Made by a program: the position numbers and the translations under genes. From positions 1,827,656-1,891,655 of the forward strand of contig JADCRB010000041.1 in the NCBI GenBank assembly GCA_021464245.1: 64,000 nucleotides of DNA. The letters are read 5' to 3'. The stretch comes from Carallia brachiata. Lineage: Eukaryota; Streptophyta; Magnoliopsida; Malpighiales; Rhizophoraceae. This document shows positions 1,237 to 51,126 of this stretch, in pieces; within the stretch, counting starts at the first letter, position 1, and each line of letters opens with the position of its first letter. Below the pieces are notes generated by a model. It saw only the letters and a program-made list of their open reading frames with translations. It was not told where the DNA came from and ran no database searches.

Positions 1237-3232
1237 TTCAAGACTTTTAATTAGTTACGAAAAGATTCCAATATTACTAAGTTAAAGTGTTCAGTACTTC
1301 AAATAACAGATTAATTTTTCCCGCCAACAATTGTTAATCCAGCAAAGTTGCCGGAAATGTATTCAATGGGACTCTTGCCGCAGCGCGCAAGATCAAGACA
1401 TTCTTTTTTTCTTTTTGTTTTTTTTTTTTTTTTTGGTGCATAAATTGAGAAAGCACAGGTAGTGCATTAAAGTTCCGTCAGGAATGTGTCTTATAATAAT
1501 TGGACGATTACGATATTTCTCACAATAGACAATAAGTCAATAAATCATATGTTTAATTCCACCAAAGTACCAAACGGGTTTGAAACATAGGATTTCTCAC
1601 CGAAGCCGGAAACGTGTAACCAGTTCAATCACATTGGTGGTAGGTTCGAGACACTCTTCTGAAAATATGCAAACACTTGCGCAACAACGTGCATTCCATC
1701 TCTAACCTGCTTTGCCAAATACCAGGTTTCTGACTACTAAATTATTTGGTAGATTCAAATGTGTATTATGGATCTCCAGATTTCTGCTGGTAAATTTTAT
1801 GGATCTTCTAATTAATAATCATTAATTAGCTGTTTTCCAGGACTAGGTGCGGGCTTCTCAAGTGTGAATTAGTCGGCTTTGAAATCTTCTTCAGGGCATA
1901 TATAGAGCACGAAACACATTCCATCAGCTGGACTAGTTAAAACCAATAGATATTGGATGACACGAGGGCTTTAAGATAGCTATGATTTGCCACAACGTGT
2001 TGGACATGACTATATAGGTACGTAATTTTGACACACAAAATGTATGCAGTTAAATTAATGATTTATTTGTTTTTTTTTAAATTTAATACATTTTTTTTCA
2101 ATTTAACAGTACAAATTTCACCTGTCAATTTTGTTTTATCATTGTATGTTTACGCAGCTTTTCTTTAACATCGTACAGACAGATAACATGATATTAAATA
2201 CTAACAAAATAAACGCTGAGAGAGTTTTGCCTCATTGGTTGGTCATTTTCAGTTCGAATCGAATTAATAAAGATATAATATGATTTTTAGGTACTGAAAT
2301 TTAGCATATAATAGAACAAAGTATTTTACTCGAATAAAATTTTAAAGGAGAGGAAAATAAGAGAGAAGAAAGTGAGAGAAATAAAAAATAGAAGGATAAA
2401 AAAAATATGTTATAGTACTTGTGATGATAATGTAAAAAAAAAATTGTGAAAAAAAAACTATAGATTTTTAAATTAGAAAAGAGAAAAAAAAGAAAAAATA
2501 TATATATTATGATATTAATTTTACCTTTCTTTTGATGAGGTAAAAAGAAGGATTAAAAAGGAGAATCAGGGTATTAAAGTAATTATGTTGCTGCAGGACG
2601 ACCTATTTTTCCTGGCTTGCTCACCATTTCAATGCACTCGAGCCTCGAAATCGTCCCCTCTTTCCCTCGATCCAAGCAAGGTGTTGATGGTGCCGGCGAA
2701 AATGAACATCTTGGGGACAATAGGCGAGTTCTGATCAATTAAGCATAAGGTGACCAAATCCTCGTCGAGAAAAATAATCAGGCCAGATCTCACGTGTGAT
2801 TGGGCCTCCAAGTTTTACTTAATTATCCCGTTTGGTGAAGCGCAACGAAGGCCACCATGACAAGTGTCGTACAGATTAAACCAACCAAAAAAAAAAAAAA
2901 AGTGTCATACAGAATTTCATGTTGTATATATAATATAGAAAATATTAATGGGTTTTGTTTTAAATAAGATTAACTTAATATGTGTTAATCAAAATTAAAA
3001 AAATAAATAATTTATTAAATATTAATAAATAAATTATATAATTATTTTAATATTAATTTATATTAAATTTTATAGTAGAACTCATATAATATTGTATATA
3101 TTTTGTGGGTTGAAAAGATCAACCTTCAAAACCCCACCTTTTATTCGCTTTATTGGTGGTTAAAGGAAAGTCATTCCTAAGTGAGAATGACATCTCAGCG
3201 CAGGCATCTGTCTGGCATAAATATGTCTGATC
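1237..3232. other. Gene-poor AT-rich spacer
   Basis: No gene is supported here. It holds a poly-T run at about 1404-1434, a purine-rich stretch at 2340-2500, and an AT-rich block at 2930-3110 like many others in this genome. A short minus-strand open frame at 2629-2811 (60 codons, starts MEAQSHVRSG) lies in a locally GC-richer patch of about 230 bp. It resembles nothing I recognise and may be a gene fragment. Confidence 0.4.
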
Positions 3233-3389
3233 AGTCTTATAAGCAGAGAAGGCATTTGGAATGCAACAGAAAATGTTATCCGAAGCACAATGCGTCTGCC
3301 AAATGGGTTTCGATTTTGCAATTGAAGCTGTGGGTTTGAATTGTGTTAAAATAAGATGATGAGATTAAATTTATAATTTACTATTTAAC
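3233..3389. repeat. 155-bp direct repeat, left copy (flanks retroelement)
   Basis: This block begins AGTCTTATAAGCAGAGAAGG and is about 90% identical by eye to 7657-7812, in the same orientation. The left copy ends just before the truncated retrotransposon coding sequence at 3393. The right copy starts about ten bases after the 3' LTR ends at 7646. It is far too long for a target-site duplication. Confidence 0.8.
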
Positions 3390-3392
3390 ACT

Positions 3393-4797
3393 CAGGCAGA
3401 CACGTTGGCTAATCTGACCACTTCTCTTGCAAAGTTAGAAATCCAGATAACAGTTGTTGTCGTATGCCAAAAATAGATAGTGCCACAGAAGGATGATGAA
3501 GAAACTACAACAGCTAACGCTATATCTGTACGTCTCGCGGAGGACGAAGATTGACGCCAACCAATCATTGACTATCTACAGCATGGGAAGCTGCCTGAAG
3601 ATCGTCGTCATAAGACAGAAATTCAACAACGAGTTCCCCGCTTCATATATCTCAAGGATGTTCTGTATCGAAGATCTTTTGATAGAGTTTTACTTCGCTG
3701 CCTAGGCAATGAAGAGGCAAAACAAGTTCTCACTGAAGTACATTCTGGTGTTTGTGGCGGACATCAATCAGGGCTTAAGTTGCACTTTCAGCTCAGAAAG
3801 ATGAGATACTACTGGCCAACCATAATACGTGATTCCATTGAGTTTGTTAAAACTTGTCAAACTTGTCAATTTCATGCTAATTACATACATCAATCATCGG
3901 AGCCACTGCATCCAACTGTCTCATCCTGACTCTTTGAAACTTGGAGTCTTGACTTAGTGGAGCCCTTGCCAAAATCATCCCTGAGTCACCTGTATATTCT
4001 CGCAGCAACATACTACTTCTCAAAATGGGCCGAAGCTATTCCACTTAGAGAGGTAAAGAAAGAGTATGTTGCCAATTTCATCCGGACTCAGCTGATTTAT
4101 CGCTATGGAGTCCCTCGATTCATCATCACTGATAATGGCAAGCAGTTCTACAACAGCTTGATTGACAAGCTCTGCGAGAAATTCAAGTTCAAGTAGCACA
4201 AGTCATCCATGTACAATGCCCTAGCAAATGGTCTGGCTGAAGCATTCAACAAGACCTTATACAACCTATTGCGGAAGGTAGTCTCCAAAATCCAAAAGAG
4301 ATTGGCATGACAGAATTCCGGAGGCATTATGGGCATATCGTACAACTTACCGGACTTCAACACAAGCGACGCCATACTCACTTGTCTACGGTGTCGAAGC
4401 AATACTGCCGTTGGAAACACAGATTCCATCTCTGCGCATGGCTGTTCTGGAAGGACTCACACAGGAGGCGAATGCTCGCCTACGTTTGGATGAGTTAGAA
4501 GCCCTCGATGAAAGGAGGCTCGAAGCACAATAGCAACTTGAGTGCTACCAAACCCAGCTCACCAACACGTTCAACCGTAGGGTCCGCCCTCGATCTTTTC
4601 AAGTTAGAAATCTTGTTCTTACAGTGCGACGACCCATCAACATGAAGTATCGGCCTGGTGACAAGCTTACTTCTAAATGGGACGGGTCATACTTAGTGTA
4701 GGAGGCCTATACTCACAACGCTTACATGCTGTCAGACCAAGAAGGCGTCCGAATCGGCCCGATTAATGGTAAATTTCTGAAACAGTATTATGTATAA
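3393..4797 (+). pseudogene. Retrotransposon pol remnant: RNase H tail and integrase
   Basis: Translated in pieces, the stretch gives the RNase H end, then the integrase zinc-binding region (HSGVCGGHQ near 3740-3765 and CQTCQ near 3855-3870), then the catalytic core. The three acidic residues lie in WSLDLVEP (about 3945-3970), ITDNGKQF (about 4125-4148) and NGLAEAFNK (about 4225-4252). The end module finishes IGPINGKFLKQYYV with a stop at 4795-4797. Premature stops occur near 3554, 3927, 4194, 4307 and 4531 and near 4700. Integrase would join element cDNA to the host chromosome; this copy is dead. Lineage is called from the C-terminal phrase and the general core match. Confidence 0.85.
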
Positions 4798-4799
4798 AT

Positions 4800-5230
4800 A
4801 TATTTAAAAAAAAGAAAAAAATTAAAAAAATAGAAAAAAATAGAAAAAAAATCAAAAAATAAAAAAAAAATCAAAAAAAAGTTGGGAAGTCCCGATCTGA
4901 AAGTTCAAGCGAAAATTCAAACCCGAAAATCCAAACCCAAATACTTGAGCCCAATTCAGAAAACTCAAAACCCAACTCAAAAGTCTGAAAACTAAGTCCA
5001 GACTCAAAACCCAAACACTCAACCCAAATCCAAAAATCAAAATCCAAAACCCAAACACTTGACCCAAATCCAAAAATCCAAGTGTAGAAGTCCAAACACT
5101 CGACCCAAATCCAATCCAAAGCCCAAAATCCAAAAATTCCAAGTTCCAGACACAGTCCAAAACTCAAGTTCAAAATCCAATCCAATCCAACTCCTAGCCC
5201 GCATGAGTATAAATTGTGAACGGCCTAAAA
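4800..5230. repeat. A-rich tract and degenerate AC-rich minisatellite
   Basis: A poly-A-like stretch (4800-4880) leads into a tract almost free of G on the plus strand. It is built from variants of CCCAAATCCAAAAATCCAA and CCCAAACACTCGACCC, with unit spacing of roughly 40-55 bp and at least five irregular copies. Long open frames on both strands here are artefacts of the composition. It separates the end of pol from the homeobox frame and may mark the left junction of the captured segment. Confidence 0.75.
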
Positions 5231-5326
5231 ATATAAAAACGACGGATGGTTTGAGTCTGAAACCTAACATAAGTCTCAACCGATCTTCACCACATACCAG
5301 ACCTTTGCTCCTCTACCACACGAAAG

Positions 5327-5920
5327 ATGGAACCAGTTGCAGAACCTCAAGACAAGGGAGAAGAAAAGTCACCCCGCACAAGGTGGCAACCAACCATGAC
5401 ACAACTGCAAATTTTGGAGGAAGTCTTCCACAATAATGGAGGTATTATTCCTAATGTATCTCAGCTTTACCAACTTGTCGGGGCAATCGAAGGAAAAAAT
5501 GTGTTTTATTGGTTCCAGAATCGGAGAAGCAGGAAGAAACTAGTACTGAGAACTGCTTTTTCCAAAGCACAGTCTATCGTTCCGATTGTAGATCCCACCG
5601 GTACAGTTTCGCCCTCAAATGAAGCAGGTCTGAGTTCTACCACTGCAATGGTCTCTTCAGGCTACAACGATCAAAGTAGTAGCCTGTGAGAGCATGCGTA
5701 CTGGTCCTGCTGGTCTTATGGAGTCAGTCAAAAGTTCATCCCTTCTAAGTACTTAAATTTAGGAGAGACTTTTCTAGCAGAAAAAAGTCGTTCCGGCGAA
5801 ACTTTGCCTCTCTTTCCAGAATATTCCGGCAGCATCAACCAGTCGAAAAGCGACGTCAACATCATCGGCCCACCAGATGAGGTCGAGCTTGACTTGGAGC
5901 TGCGTCTCGGGCCCCGCTAG
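5327..5920 (+). pseudogene. WUSCHEL-like homeobox gene carried inside a retrotransposon
   Basis: One reading frame of 198 codons, broken only by TGA at 5687-5689 (codon 121). Residues about 17-71 are a WOX-type homeodomain: it has the TRWQP start of helix 1 and the signature IEGKNVFYWFQN of helix 3 (residues 54-65), then a basic RRSRKK. After the TGA the same frame gives a WUS-box TLPLFP (5801-5818) and an EAR-type repressor motif LDLELRL (5888-5908), ending four codons later at TAG. That domain order is the one of WUSCHEL. About six residues are missing between helices 2 and 3 compared with WUS, so DNA binding may be altered. No intron is present, whereas plant WUS genes have introns, which points to capture through RNA. 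The first ATG has a favourable context (A at -3, G at +4). The protein up to the TGA has 120 residues and could be made by itself; whether it is expressed is unknown. Confidence 0.85.
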
Positions 5921-6840
5921 GACGGCTGATAAGATAAAGTACAACGACTTTGGCAGCACACGGCAACAACTTCTGTAACACACGATAACGACTTTCGTGA
6001 AGCGCGTCAGCCGGTGCCTCTTTTGTCTCTTATGCGGGAAAGAGATGTGGATGACTCTACTCGATTCTGCGTACCTCCTTTTTGACTTAAAAAAAAAAAA
6101 CTCTTTATGTTATATATATATCCTGCATGTCCGAGCCATAATACTTACCCTACAGCTCTTCTTCTTCTCAAAAGAAAATGGCTAGTCTCTGCACTTGCCT
6201 CAAGAAGTTCTTTGATTAAGAAATTGGAGGCGCACGAACTAAGAAAAGAAAGAGTAGTCTTCCTCGAGGGATCCCTAAAAGCCCTCGAAACTCAGTCTCA
6301 AACGTCATCGGTATCATGGAGTTCCAACTACTCTCCTTAGTTCACATCTACCACAGAGGGATGAGACGCTGCAATCATCATAATCTTCCTTTAGATGCGA
6401 CGACGTACAAGGAAGTTCCAACTACTCTCCTTACATCGGAGCAGACTCGGGAGTCATCACTACAGTCAGTCTCTCTGTGTGCAGGTCTTGAATTCCGAAG
6501 TGCTGGGTCTTCCTTTTAGGGAGGTTCAAGTTCTTTACCTACCGGATCATTCTCATTAAAGTTTTGGAATTTCAAAGAACCTTTACTAGCCTTTACGAGT
6601 TATGGAAGCTCGAACTCACCTGAAGCCAAGACTTCAATTTTTATATTAGCTGGGCTGCTAACTTTTTCAAGATCGTATCTGTTTCCTGGTGAGATCCAAC
6701 AAAAGCAGGTCTAACCGGAGATAGAAGGCTTCAACATTTAATATTTATCAAGACATCTCAAGTTTCAAACTGGACTTCAAGACGCGGTTTGGATCATTTC
6801 TGTAAAATTCTTCCTTACCAACCCTTAAAGTGAGGGCATT
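5921..6840 (+). other. Retrotransposon 3' non-coding segment
   Basis: This lies between the homeobox frame and the 3' LTR. No conserved domain is seen. A 22-bp phrase around AGTTCCAACTACTCTCCTTA occurs twice (6319-6341 and 6412-6434). The purine-rich run AAAGTGAGGG at 6827-6836 just before the LTR is the likely polypurine tract. Confidence 0.6.
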
Positions 6841-7646
6841 TGTAAACAAGTAAATTATAAAAATAATAAAAAAAAGAGGTGTTGGCAGCCGCCAACCTTG
6901 AAGTCAAGGTTGGCAGCTGCCAACCTAAATTGAATGTCACCAACCAAATAGTTGGTGGCAGACAGGCGGGGGAGGCCTATAAATTGGTCTCCCCCCAAAT
7001 CAAATAGAACCAGCAAGCGAAGCAAAAAAAAAAAAAAAGAGAGCAAAGAAGAGAGAGATAGCAGAAAGAAAAAAAAATTAAAGTTTATCAAAAAAATTTT
7101 CTGTTGCGTATTCTGTGATATTTTTTTTTAACTCTTTTGAGGAAGATATCTCAGATATAAAGTCAAAAAAATTTGCTATTTCCGTTTCTAAAGTTATTTT
7201 AGATTTATATTCTCTGATCATATCAGATCTGGATCTGTGAGAGTATAGATCTAAAAATATCAAAATATTATAAATCTGGCTGATATCAAGTTTCATACGG
7301 CCCTCAGCAAAGTCCAGACAACTCATCCGAGAGTAAGTCCCTTCGACCATAGGTGAAATTAAGTCAGATCGGCTCAGATCAGGTCTCTGCGATTCTGAAC
7401 CGTAGTCTAAATGTCTACATTAAATCCAGTTTCAGTCTACCCAGTTCAAGAAAAAGTTGTGGAAATTATTTCTGTCAAAATCAAGATCGTGCAGCCCTTG
7501 ACGGAGTCAAAAAAAAAAAGAACACTAATCGGAGAATTTACGGAGATCGACCTCACGTAAATTTTCTTTTACTTTAAATTTTTATTTGTAATTTATTTTT
7601 GTATTTTCGAGTTTAATTGTTTTAGACTTGAAATTTACTCGTTACA
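6841..7646 (+). repeat. 3' LTR of the Tat-lineage element
   Basis: The LTR begins TGTAAACAAG right after the polypurine-like run and ends TCGTTACA, giving the expected TG...CA ends and a length of 806 bp. A TATA box (TATAAAT, 6978-6984) follows a cluster of inverted GTTGGCAGC/GCTGCCAAC repeats at 6881-6960, which would be the U3 enhancer region. GC-rich U3 gives way to AT-rich R/U5. No matching 5' LTR is present in the window, so the boundaries rest on the end signals only. Confidence 0.75.
6977..6985 (+). promoter_or_regulatory. LTR TATA box
   Basis: CTATAAATT inside the 3' LTR, about 140 bp from its start and just downstream of GGGGGAGGC. The position fits the U3/R promoter of the element. 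Confidence 0.6.
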
Positions 7647-7656
7647 ATCTCTAATT

Positions 7657-7812
7657 AGTCTTATAAGCAGAGAAGGCATTTGGAATGCAACAGAAAATGT
7701 TATCCGGAGCACGGTGCGTCTGCTAAATGGGTTTCGATTATGCGGTTGAAGCTGTGGATTTGAATTATGTTAAAATGAGATGATCAGATTAAATTTATAA
7801 TTTATTATTTGA
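7657..7812. repeat. 155-bp direct repeat, right copy
   Basis: Second copy of the block at 3233-3389, in the same orientation. Differences are scattered point changes, mostly transitions, so the duplication is not recent. Confidence 0.8.
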
Positions 7813-40487: not shown

Positions 40488-43400
40488 TTAACCCCAGGAG
40501 AAGGAGAGCATCTGGTGGGGTCCGCTCACAGATGAAACATCACCTTCAGTCTGAAAAGAGTTTTGCCTTTGCCTCTGGTGGATGTTTGATGAATTAATGT
40601 TGCCATCATAGTTCAGACTACTAGATATCAAGGACAGGGGTTGAGGGGTGGTCAGTTGAGGCTGCACCAAGTCCATCTGGTTCAAACCAATTATCTCCCG
40701 CGAGCTGTTCGCCGGCGGAGATGACAGAAGAGAGAGAGCACAGTCAGAATGATGATGAATGTCCGGCATTAACCCGTTGGAGAACAACATCTTCTGACTG
40801 CTGCCACTGCCACTGTTGGCTAATATTGAATTTGCATCCAAGTTGGATTGACCACCAGATTCTATAGGAATTGACGAACTAGTAGTGCCTTGCATGAAAG
40901 GGAACTGCTTTTCCACCTTATATTTCAATGACAATGATCCTGGAAAATGGCTTTTTCTAAAACTGATGTTGAACGAGGAGGACTGGCTACCATAAAGCCA
41001 TGGATCACTCTCAACTTTGACCGCTCCCGTCCAATTGGAGCTCGCTGCAGTGGTTGAAAATACCTGAGAGCCGCCAAAATTTATATATGTGGTACCTGCA
41101 TATGTACGTAGAAGCCAGTTTCATGCACTACAGATGCACAATGTGAAAGACTCATGCATTGGGACACTTTTAATAGAAGGAATTAAAAAATTGAATGAAT
41201 TCATATTCGAAATTAGAAAATGAACCTTGGTGATGGGAAAATAGACTTGGAGAATTTATGGACAGAGAATCTGGCTGGGGCTTCCTTCGCCGGCGATTGT
41301 GTCCGTCAAGACGTTTTCTGCAGCTCCGCTTTCCCTCATCAAACTCCACTAATGAGTGGAACCTGGACAAAGGAATTTGAAGAACAAATACTTATTATAG
41401 ACCAAGAAAATTGCTCCTTAACATATTATTTCTAGTGATCAATAGTTATGATGCTGCCATGGGGTATCTCTAAGAAGAAAATTTAAGACGCTTGGCCAAG
41501 CAAATGCAGTGCAAAATGCTCGTTTCATTTTTTTTTTTTTCGTTCGTTGCTTTAACCATATGAAAATATGCAACACATATTGGCAACCATATGCATGAAA
41601 TTCCACTAGCAAAATTGATAATATTTGAGGAAATACCCCAGCAGTATAGCACCACTTTTACCAAGCATGTCAAAACAAAATGCTGTTGACTGCTCTCTGT
41701 TGGATAGTAACAACACCTTCTTTATTTTAGCTTGCTATATACATATATGGTCATCATTTAATTCTGAGATAAAGTTCATATAATAAAATATATACTTTCT
41801 AAAGATAATTATGATGAAATCATAATTATGAGATAATTATTTGATGTTTTTTCAAAATATTTCTAATTAATGTACCATTAAGTGGCGCATTTTATGTTTG
41901 CTTCTTATGAATAAAATAATTATTTTTATAGACTAGAGTATGAGATACTTGAACAACTATATAGGTGCTTTAGGAAAAAAGTACACTAAATTGATATGCA
42001 ATAAAGATTCTCTAGAATGATCTGCAACTGATGGCCGAATAACTCTTAAACTTAAGATAACTGAGGTATCTCCTATGCAAGTTATGCTTTGATCTTATTT
42101 TTGAGTTATCACAATAAAAAATTGCCAGTAGAAGTGAATATTGAACATGTCATGAATTATATGAACGTAATTAGGTGATCAATAAAAGATTTATTATCCT
42201 AAATATTTACGAAAGTATGTTCTATTATTTTCAATAAATATTGATTCAAGAAACTTTCGACCAATGTGGAATGGGGATTTATTAAGGAGCTATGATTCTC
42301 ATTGGACAAAATATGATAAATACTAATTTCATACTTTATGTCTAATTAAAATATTAATATAATGAAAATATTGAATTATAGAGAGAAAATGTGCAAAAAA
42401 GAGGCTATTATAATTACTTTGAAGTTTCTCCTATTTGAGTGACTATAACACATTGCTACATATCAGGTTTAGTCTGTAAATATAGATTGATTAATTGAAG
42501 CATTAATGATAAACTAAAAGATTCTTAGGATCTTAGTGCAGGGACTATAAATTAGCGAATATATATATATATATATATATAAAGATAATGTTGAAGTTAA
42601 CTGAAAAATTATAAAAATTTTGAAATTTACTTGAACTGGTAACTGATTCCAAATAATCAAAATCCTATATAAATATCCATCATAGAATGAGCACAAATAA
42701 TGCTAGAATATTAGGATTTTACCTCTCTTTTTTTCCTCCCTCTCCCTCTCACTCCTAAATAGTTTAAGATTTGTGAGACCTGTTCTCCCCACTGTTTATA
42801 TTGATAATTGGTAGAGGCTGAACAAATGAATTCACGACAACGCGATAAGAAGTTTGTAGAAGATATCAAAAATTACAAGTAATATCTAAATTAGATTGTG
42901 ATTATGATAAACAAGCAACCAGTATATTATTAGAAGCTAGAAGTCAAAAAACAAAAGTTCTGCTGATATTTATTCAGTAAGACTAATAATATATATCACA
43001 AAAATTGTATTACAAAATATTTCAAACTTTATAATTATAAAAAAAATCATTAACTTTTTTCAGAATTATAACTTTAGGATATTTCATGATACATTTTCGT
43101 AATATATATAATTTCTCATTTTGTAAATTTCTCCTCACGATTCTTAAAATGTAATGCATTTGTTTCCTTGTATCCATCAAAGGAAGGCTTAAATTTAAAT
43201 CTTCCTTTCATGACTAAAAACAAAGTTTTTTTTTAAATTTTTAAAAGAAGAAAGTAGACATGACACCCCACAAATTCGTCATGATAATTCCATTGCTTCA
43301 TCACAGTGAGCAAAGGTTGCTATGCTTAATTATTAGAGGAGCATATTTCTGATACTCAATAAAAGTTATCAAACCACTTCCACTACTCTTCGGGGACAAA

Positions 43401-49782: not shown

Positions 49783-51126
49783 GGGGCCGTTTGGAGTGGT
49801 TTAAGTTTTCTGTTTTTTGTTTGTTTTTCACAAAAAAAACATGAAACATGTTTGTTATTGATTCTGTTTTCTGTTTTTTGTTGAAAAGTTAAAAATGTTT
49901 TTCAAAGAAAAAAAACAGATTGGGAAAACAATAAAAATAATTTTCTGATTTTATTTTTCACTTTTTTTTCTATACTTGCTCTCACAACTTTTTCTCTCTC
50001 TATCCACCCTCTTTATCATATCTCTCTTTACTCATCCTCTCTCTATCCCTCTATATTTTTTCTCTCACTACTCTTTCTCTCTCTACCCATTCTCTCTCTA
50101 CCCTCTATCTCCTTTTCTATCTCTATCATTCTCTCTCTACCCTCTCTCCCCTTTTTCTATCTATATCATTCTCTCTCTACCCTCTCTCCCTTTTTTCTAT
50201 CTCTACCATTCTCTCTCTACCCTCTCTCTCTCTCTTTTCTCTCTCTACTCATTCTTTCTCCACCCTCTTTCTCTTTTTTCTCTTTATACCATTATCTCTA
50301 CCAATTCTCCCTCTACCCACTCTCTCTCTCTCCTTTTTCTCCCTCAACCATTCTCTCTACTCATTCTCTCTGTGCTCCTTCTCTCTCTCTTATTTTTCTC
50401 TCTCTACCATTCTTTCTTCTTTTTTTTACTCTATCATTCTCTCTACTCGTTCTCTCTCTGCCCTCTCTCTCTCTCTTTTTTCTCTCTACCATTCTCTGTC
50501 TACCCATATTCTCTCTCCTTTTTCTTACTCTACATTATCTCTCTAGTCTCTCTTTCTTCTTTTTCTCTCTCTACTCATTCTCTTTCTATCTAGACTCTCT
50601 TTTTTTTCTTATTTTACCATTCTCTCTGCTCATTCTCTCTCTACGCTCTCTCTCTCTCATTTTTCTCTCTTTATCATTCTCTGTACTCGTTCTTTCTATA
50701 CTCTCTCTCTCTTTTCTCTCTCTGTCATTTTCTCTACTCATTCTCTCTCTACCCTCTCTCTCTCATTTTTCTCTCTCTACTATTCTATTTATTCATTCTT
50801 TCTCTACCCTTTCTCTTTCTGTCATTCTCTCTACTCATTCTCTTTCTTCTCTCATTCTCTCTTTTTTCTCTCTCTACCATTCTCTCTACTCATTCTGTCT
50901 CTACCCTCTTTCTTTCTCTCTCTCTTTCTCTTGCTCCCATTTTTTTCTTCATATTTATAATTTTTTTTATCATTTCTCTCACTATCCTATTTCTATCTAT
51001 TTTTTTATTCTTATAAAAAAAATAAAAATTGACAGCAATAAATATAAAAATTTAACAAACAGTAAAAATAAAAAACAGAAAATAAAAAATAGAAACAAAA
51101 AATTGACAACGTCTTCAAACGGACCC
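49783..51126. mobile_element. Tourist/PIF-Harbinger-like element with CT-rich core
   Basis: The ends GGGGCCGTTTGGAG and, in reverse, GGGTCCGTTTGAAG are inverted repeats, and TTA flanks both sides (49780-49782 and 51127-51129), the target of PIF/Harbinger elements. The subterminal regions TTTTCTGTTTTTTGTTTGTT and AAAAACAGAAAATAAAAAAT also pair. The core from about 49976 to 50990 is almost pure pyrimidine on the plus strand. It is built from CTCTCTCTACCATTCTCTCTA-like units of 20-50 bp. The 205-codon open frame in it is an artefact. Confidence 0.85.
49976..50990. repeat. About 1 kb polypyrimidine CT-rich satellite
   Basis: Irregular tandem units of the type TCTCTACCATTCTCTCTACTC, with hardly any G on the plus strand. 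Expanded inside the Tourist-like element. Confidence 0.9.

Follow-up and report, generated by a model that had tools for sequence, protein, structure and literature searches.

Introduction

The described systems nearest to the element reported here are the Retand/Tat retrotransposons Grande, RIRE2, and Retand. In the passages of PMC11963269 and PMC7264820 covered here, these elements share with the present family a gag-pol with a second RNase H and a region between pol and the 3' LTR that holds tandem repeats and additional coding sequence. Across 63 Retand clusters, extra open reading frames (ORFs) with known domains lie antisense and nearly always encode TRP28, and no sense ORF with a known domain is reported for the clusters surveyed in these passages (PMC11963269). 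The family described below differs in bearing a sense WOX gene in this region.

Additional protein domains are considered to be rarely fixed in plant LTR retrotransposons, and those named in the covered part of PMC9289625 are PMD, G-patch, AIR1, DUF1409, YgdH, L26, B3, ArgoL2, and 2-ODD. The same part describes Gypsy elements of Phalaenopsis whose extra ORF encodes an AlkB m6A demethylase and in which, as in the present case, a host-derived gene is fixed in many copies. The covered parts of PMC6482515 and PMC7109043 deal with transposable elements (TEs) in the neighbourhood of WOX genes and with the usual expression of WUS.

Here, we describe a locus in a window of Carallia brachiata DNA (the whole stretch that was analysed, 64,000 nucleotides), at which a WOX frame lies between pol and the 3' LTR of a Ty3/gypsy element, and the family to which it belongs. 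The original prediction, made from the letters of the window, had read this frame as a WUSCHEL-like gene captured by a Tat-lineage retrotransposon.

Results

Structure of the window copy

The WOX frame, intronless and with WUS-clade motifs, occupies positions 5327..5920 (+) of the window, with an ATG at 5327 and a stop codon at 5918-5920. It encodes, in this order and in the frame of the ATG, a WOX homeodomain (5381..5539, +; Pfam PF00046, Homeodomain, E 5.7e-10), the WUS-box TLPLFP (5801..5818, +), and the EAR-type motif LDLELRL (5888..5908, +). The solved structure nearest to the homeodomain by sequence is Arabidopsis WUSCHEL (6ry3, E 1.9e-12), in an alignment with a 6-residue gap. The motifs and their position between pol and the 3' LTR are where the original prediction had placed them, and the Pfam and WUSCHEL-structure matches agree with it. 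Its description of one shared intronless frame holds for the motifs, but the window copy is decayed: an in-frame TGA (5687..5689, +) breaks the frame, and the homeodomain has lost six codons relative to the majority of the other copies.

Upstream of the frame, the Ty3/gypsy element, truncated at its 5' side, is represented by the integrase-encoding 3' part of its pol, which spans 3387..4800 (+) and is homologous to all 20 copies fetched from elsewhere in the genome; the corresponding frame of one of them, L020, matches Pfam rve (E 8.9e-11). The spacer between pol and WOX (4806..5326, +), also matched in 20/20 copies, consists of an A-rich tract followed by C/A-rich tandem repeats of ~40 bp, with the repeats within it at 4806-4880 and 5005-5114. 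Downstream, a non-coding 3' internal region with a purine-rich tract at its end (5921..6840, +) leads to the 3' LTR (6841..7646, +; TGTAA...TTACA, ~806 bp), the ends of which were compared across family copies. Homology to the family begins inside pol, at 3387 in 19 of the 20 alignments and at 3392 in the remaining one, so of pol and the LTRs the window copy retains just the integrase end and the 3' LTR. Because neither a 5' LTR nor gag belongs to it, it is a 5'-truncated relic.

A 164-bp direct repeat flanks the element (both copies unstranded). The left copy (3223..3386) is flush with the truncated end, and the right copy (7647..7810), 91% identical to the left, is flush with the LTR end. 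These repeats are placed as a target duplication would be around an insertion that lost its 5' part, though they are very long for one, and the window copy was perhaps inserted by repair rather than by integrase action.

Two other features were observed elsewhere in the window. A 148-aa frame at 40488-40934 (-) looks by eye like part of an SPL (squamosa-promoter-binding-like) protein, and a CT-rich degenerate tandem array of nearly 1 kb, with TCTCTCTAC-like units, lies at 49979-50931.

Copy number and linkage of the homeobox to the element

A DNA search of the 337.5-Mb genome (164 contigs) gave 40 scored matches of 1203 candidates, 85-100% identical to the window frame. Among the 39 matches outside the window, 20 were fetched with 10 kb each. 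All 20 had the order integrase, spacer, WOX, 3' region, and 3' LTR, and in 19 a 5' LTR fell inside the fetched stretch. A 35-base homeobox word was present, at up to two mismatches, at 638 places genome-wide, which are word places and not each shown to be a complete element, and an integrase word was present at 705; the reversed control gave 0 in both cases. The former number probably undercounts the WOX pieces because only 16/20 fetched copies carry the homeobox word within two mismatches.

Linkage was counted for the 74 exact homeobox places within the range covered by both word lists. For at least 51 of them, the integrase word was matched exactly on the same strand at a distance of 721-963 bp upstream, a lower bound because the word lists contain exact matches only; the other 23 were without a listed exact integrase partner. 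After shifts of 20, 50, 100, or -20 kb, this linkage was 0 each time.

Taken by itself, the window copy, being truncated and with a broken frame, would also look like a retroelement fragment that lies by chance beside a decayed host WOX gene. The same frame in the same slot in 20/20 fetched copies and the homeobox word at hundreds of places rule this out, as do the target duplications around the whole unit (see below) and the linkage that vanished on shifting, and we give the explanation next to no chance. The spread through the genome that the original prediction had suggested is borne out by these hundreds of copies. The genome search that it proposed, for the frame joined to pol, found homeobox and retroelement joined in every fetched copy, and the case that it had set against itself, in which no other copy joins the two, does not apply. 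There is hardly any doubt that this is a high-copy family and that it captured a WOX gene.

Two copies on contig C88, L015 and L019, lie ~61 kb apart, share the same eight bases past the 3' LTR, and have a nearly equal match profile. They probably represent a segmental duplication carrying the element.

Retrotransposon cassette and lineage

Pfam matches in stretches of four copies (L016, L018, L020, and L021) comprised Retrotrans_gag, RVT_1, RT_RNaseH, a second RNase H (RVT_3/RNase_H), and rve; the aspartic protease match was weak in the same scan. RT_RNaseH_2/RT_RNaseH was followed by RVT_3/RNase_H in L021 and L016, and the second RNase H lies between RT-RNaseH and integrase. An additional RNase H (aRNH) is a Tat trait according to the covered part of PMC5348765. 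Judged from the double RNase H, the family has a Tat-type architecture, and the lineage named in advance is supported by this domain order. The other features of Ty3/gypsy elements were also found, namely paired LTRs around gag-pol, the order RT-RNaseH-integrase, and a 5-bp duplication.

The 3' LTR ended in TACA in all 19 copies examined, each with a 5' LTR partner, and LTR starts were read in 5 copies. A PBS-like sequence after the 5' LTR was similar across 19 copies and most altered in L024. The K2P distance between paired LTRs was 0.008-0.101 in 19 copies (177-613 sites compared). Target duplications of 5 bp were present in all five testable copies, those with the 5' LTR start within the stretch, as read from their flanks; they were perfect in L014, L022, L024, and L027 and matched at 4/5 bases in L012. 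Because the LTRs and target duplications enclose the whole cassette, the WOX gene lies inside the transposing unit.

The best 120 relatives listed for the RT-RNaseH stretch were 56-87% identical and were mostly plant or unnamed polyproteins without lineage names. The region between pol and the 3' LTR was ~2 kb in the fetched copies, which is below the range of 2.9-6.6 kb given for Retand in the covered part of PMC11963269. In one decayed copy (L021), seven antisense frames have at least 70 aa; five of them were scanned, and none contained TRP28.

A second gene 3' of WOX was considered and rejected. A long sense frame present in some copies (L021:8193-8966) had no Pfam match, and across 20 copies the region downstream of WOX gave no sign of frame-specific constraint.

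Origin of the captured gene

Nine WOX genes of the host genome outscored the element copies with a WUS homeodomain query. Named by sequence reading, they are two WUS, two WOX1-like, WOX2, WOX3, WOX5, and two WOX4 genes. In seven of the nine, a WUS-box was found 3' of the homeodomain but in a different open frame; that of L032 is at the very end of the fetched stretch. The other two, L031 and L033, had no WUS-box within the fetched stretch. The element is unlike these seven genes in that its homeodomain and WUS-box share one frame. An mRNA-derived capture, as originally proposed, is supported because the element has a single frame and the host genes have split frames, as expected with introns. 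The gene was probably captured by reverse transcription of a spliced mRNA from an ancestor plant.

The IEGKNVFYWFQN core and the WUS-box TLxLFP mark the modern (WUS) clade of WOX. The element carries both, and its donor is accordingly read as a gene with WUS-clade motifs. In alignment score, the homeodomain of element copy L046 is nearest to WUS, with 34/68 residues identical to Vitis WUS and 32/68 to host WUS; a WOX3-like Turnera protein has 35 identities with it at a lower score. The element homeodomain equals that of host WUS in length and is one residue longer than those of the other seven host WOX genes read.

In a homeodomain tree with an intermediate-clade outgroup, the element rows fell just outside the modern rows (support 88/66). 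Forcing the element with WUS in this tree was marginally rejected (68 columns, AU p = 0.049), and the values for WOX1, WOX3, and WOX5 were 0.13-0.23. Without the outgroup (68 columns), none of the groupings tested was rejected (AU p = 0.284 for WUS and 0.24-0.29 for WOX1, 3, 4, and 5), and WOX2 was the unforced neighbour of the element. The trees do not place the donor gene because the homeodomain is too short and too diverged. The WUS-clade donor, for which the original prediction had proposed a WOX tree as the check, is therefore supported as to its modern-clade motifs, with WUS itself as one candidate. The long branch of the element means either an old capture or a fast-evolving gene.

Among 5.8 billion annotated proteins, 33 matches to the element WOX were found up to E 10, none of them of the element type as judged from identity and the 11 sequences read. 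Of these, 31 were homeodomain proteins, either from plants or unnamed, with no more than 53% identity in the homeodomain region, and 2 were rotifer matches at E above 3. Viral contigs gave 5 pattern matches, none of which was confirmed.

The two WUS genes of the host are L029 and L030. The proteins nearest to host WUS are two WUS of Erythroxylum novogranatense (57 and 60%), which marks the host as a eudicot, perhaps of the Malpighiales. L030 clusters with one of these two in the homeodomain tree (98/87), and L029 is unresolved beside the other. The two WUS genes of the host and of Erythroxylum novogranatense possibly reflect a shared duplication.

Intactness and residue conservation of the WOX frame

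A protein search gave 150 scored matches (2297 candidates), of which 102 are stop-free and span residues 2-205 of 207 or more, 39 contain stops, and 9 are partial. Stop-free full-length frames persist where the protein differs from the query by ~10%. Three further copies, read as short stretches, have an unbroken 207-codon frame. The copies L049 and L050 lie on separate contigs and were identical across 800 bp. All three motifs lay in one open frame in 5 of the 34 copies examined letter by letter, a sample in which 21 were the window copy and copies picked by likeness to it.

Helix 3 and the cores of both C-terminal motifs vary little among 33 aligned copies. In the WUS-box, the residues L, P, L, and F are identical in 33/33 copies, T in 27/32, and the last P in 30/33. 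The EAR-type motif has L in 33, D in 33, L in 32, E in 30, and L in 33 copies, followed by R/H/C and then L in 32. Of 24 homeodomain columns without variation among 33 modern WOX rows, 22 are kept in all 7 element rows, and the commonest residue is matched in only 13 of 43 variable columns. The structure predicted for the L051 protein contains a three-helix homeodomain with pLDDT block means of 91-95 (residues 21-70), the rest being of low confidence; the best structural matches of this model are WUS homeodomain chains, most of them on DNA.

Selection on the WOX frame

Selection was analysed by comparing singleton variants, which are mostly post-insertion, with variants shared by at least three copies, which come mostly from transposing lineages. 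The test used 33 copies, with L019 (likely a duplicate of L015) and L043 (same place as L021) omitted. N/S in the WOX frame fell from 126/41 (3.07) for singletons to 46/31 (1.48) for shared variants (p = 0.016), and no such fall was seen in two shifted frames and the adjacent non-coding region. In the integrase, used as a positive control with 20 copies, N/S fell from 94/43 (2.19) to 1/14 (0.07). Within the WOX frame, the fall was clearest in the homeodomain, from 28/11 (2.55) to 4/7 (0.57; p = 0.04); the linker gave a borderline value (p = 0.058), and the WUS-box/EAR part alone showed no fall (p = 0.75).

This signal was not robust. Variants of the test gave p = 0.044 without the duplicate L050; p = 0.038, 0.20, and 0.13 when sharing was set at 2, 4, and 5 or more copies; p = 0.46 without C>T and G>A changes; and p = 0.11 on 20 DNA-chosen copies. 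The dN/dS check across copies that had been called for gave 0.28-0.58 for the WOX frame in the 27 pairs listed, pooled 0.45, in 11 chosen copies that were partly picked for open frames, a choice that favours open frames. The integrase value was 0.25 (12 copies).

If WOX had been captured accidentally as a neutral passenger, its frames would be open only since many copies are young. A young burst, in which many matches share one score and frame length, the variants in which the shared/singleton test loses significance, and the result for the WUS-box/EAR part all agree with such a capture. It accounts poorly for stop-free full-length frames at ~10% protein difference, for the modern-invariant homeodomain columns kept despite otherwise strong divergence, and for the dN/dS values, and we consider it unlikely. 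Purifying selection on the WOX frame is supported but not proved, and there is a good probability that a working protein has been selected for. We read this pattern as a working homeodomain under constraint, with loose constraint elsewhere.

Discussion

Taken as a whole, the best explanation is a Tat-type family with a captured sense WOX accessory gene that has been kept, its product being a putative trans-acting repressor in stem cells; we hold this account to be very probable. A homeobox mRNA of an ancestor plant, with WUS-clade motifs, would have been reverse-transcribed into a Tat-type Ty3/gypsy element, and the captured gene would have been kept in sense orientation between pol and the 3' LTR. 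Its product is predicted to be a nuclear DNA-binding repressor that combines a WUS-type homeodomain, a WUS-box, and an EAR motif. The WUS-box and EAR motifs of host WOX proteins recruit TOPLESS-type corepressors. The repressor may act in trans at host WUS-type target sites in shoot or floral stem cells, and the element would thereby be better expressed or transmitted in germline-founding cells. Among the functions considered, such action on host sites to the benefit of the element is the most likely, and we propose it tentatively.

The 18 LTRs analysed were not enriched in the words TAAT, TGAA, TTAATGG, or G-box. All of these are known WUS words, and TGAA, TAAT, and the G-box are named in PDB titles. 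Control of the LTR through known WUS motifs was rejected on this result, which favours host targets over the element itself, with the reservation that the specificity may have changed. The result also bears on the idea of a self-regulator, in which the protein would bind the LTR of its own element and tune the element's transcription, a role suggested more generally for Retand accessory proteins. A possibly DNA-binding accessory protein in the slot between pol and the 3' LTR is a common Retand theme in the covered part of PMC11963269 and speaks for this idea; given the LTR counts, and even with an element specificity that may differ, we think it improbable.

In another reading, the product would compete with host WUS and so weaken a barrier to heritable transposition. 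WUS takes part in the exclusion of RNA viruses from Arabidopsis shoot stem cells (covered part of PMC10589665). In stem cells, TE expression changes, and in the meristem it rises transiently before flowering (covered part of PMC7560203). The motif set and order of the element product are the same as those of WUS, but its homeodomain shares fewer than half of its residues with host WUS (32/68, as above), and the exclusion was shown for RNA viruses and not for retrotransposons. This putative antagonism is in our view quite unlikely. We infer the link of the element WOX product to stem cells. In the wider form of our preferred reading, a selfish element would encode a diverged WUS-type repressor, maintained by selection, with which it either re-tunes shoot or floral stem cells or counters the WUS-dependent barrier that keeps parasites out of them, and so reaches the germline; we offer this as a possibility that falls short of an even chance.

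Germ cells descend from shoot stem cells (covered part of PMC7560203), and an element with a stem-cell-type homeodomain repressor therefore bears on how transposons enter the next generation. The findings suggest that a plant stem-cell regulator has been turned to the advantage of a selfish element. The family also supplies hundreds of natural WUS-type protein variants. It carries a warning for the annotation of WOX genes because element copies can be miscounted as host WOX genes.

The original prediction knew of no described family of this kind, and no homeobox-bearing plant retrotransposon was found among the papers listed in searches of an open-access library either. The main texts of PMC9289625 and the review PMC13317346 do not contain the word "homeobox", nor does PMC7264820 contain words starting with "homeo". 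The open-access passages covered describe no developmental master regulator as a fixed extra domain.

Compared with WUSCHEL and other modern-clade WOX proteins, the element product shares the homeodomain with IEGKNVFYWFQN, the WUS-box, and the C-terminal EAR-type motif, but about half of its homeodomain residues differ, and helix 3 ends in RRSRKK, not HKARER. The element gene further differs in being one intronless frame of about 205 residues that is multicopy within LTR elements. Whereas the Phalaenopsis elements encode an RNA demethylase and are 25 kb long (covered part of PMC9289625), the present family encodes a developmental transcription factor. An element with its own stem-cell regulator would have a parallel in the captured host regulators that some viruses carry. 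A Gypsy element with a host-derived accessory gene is known; the WOX cargo is, as far as we could see, new.
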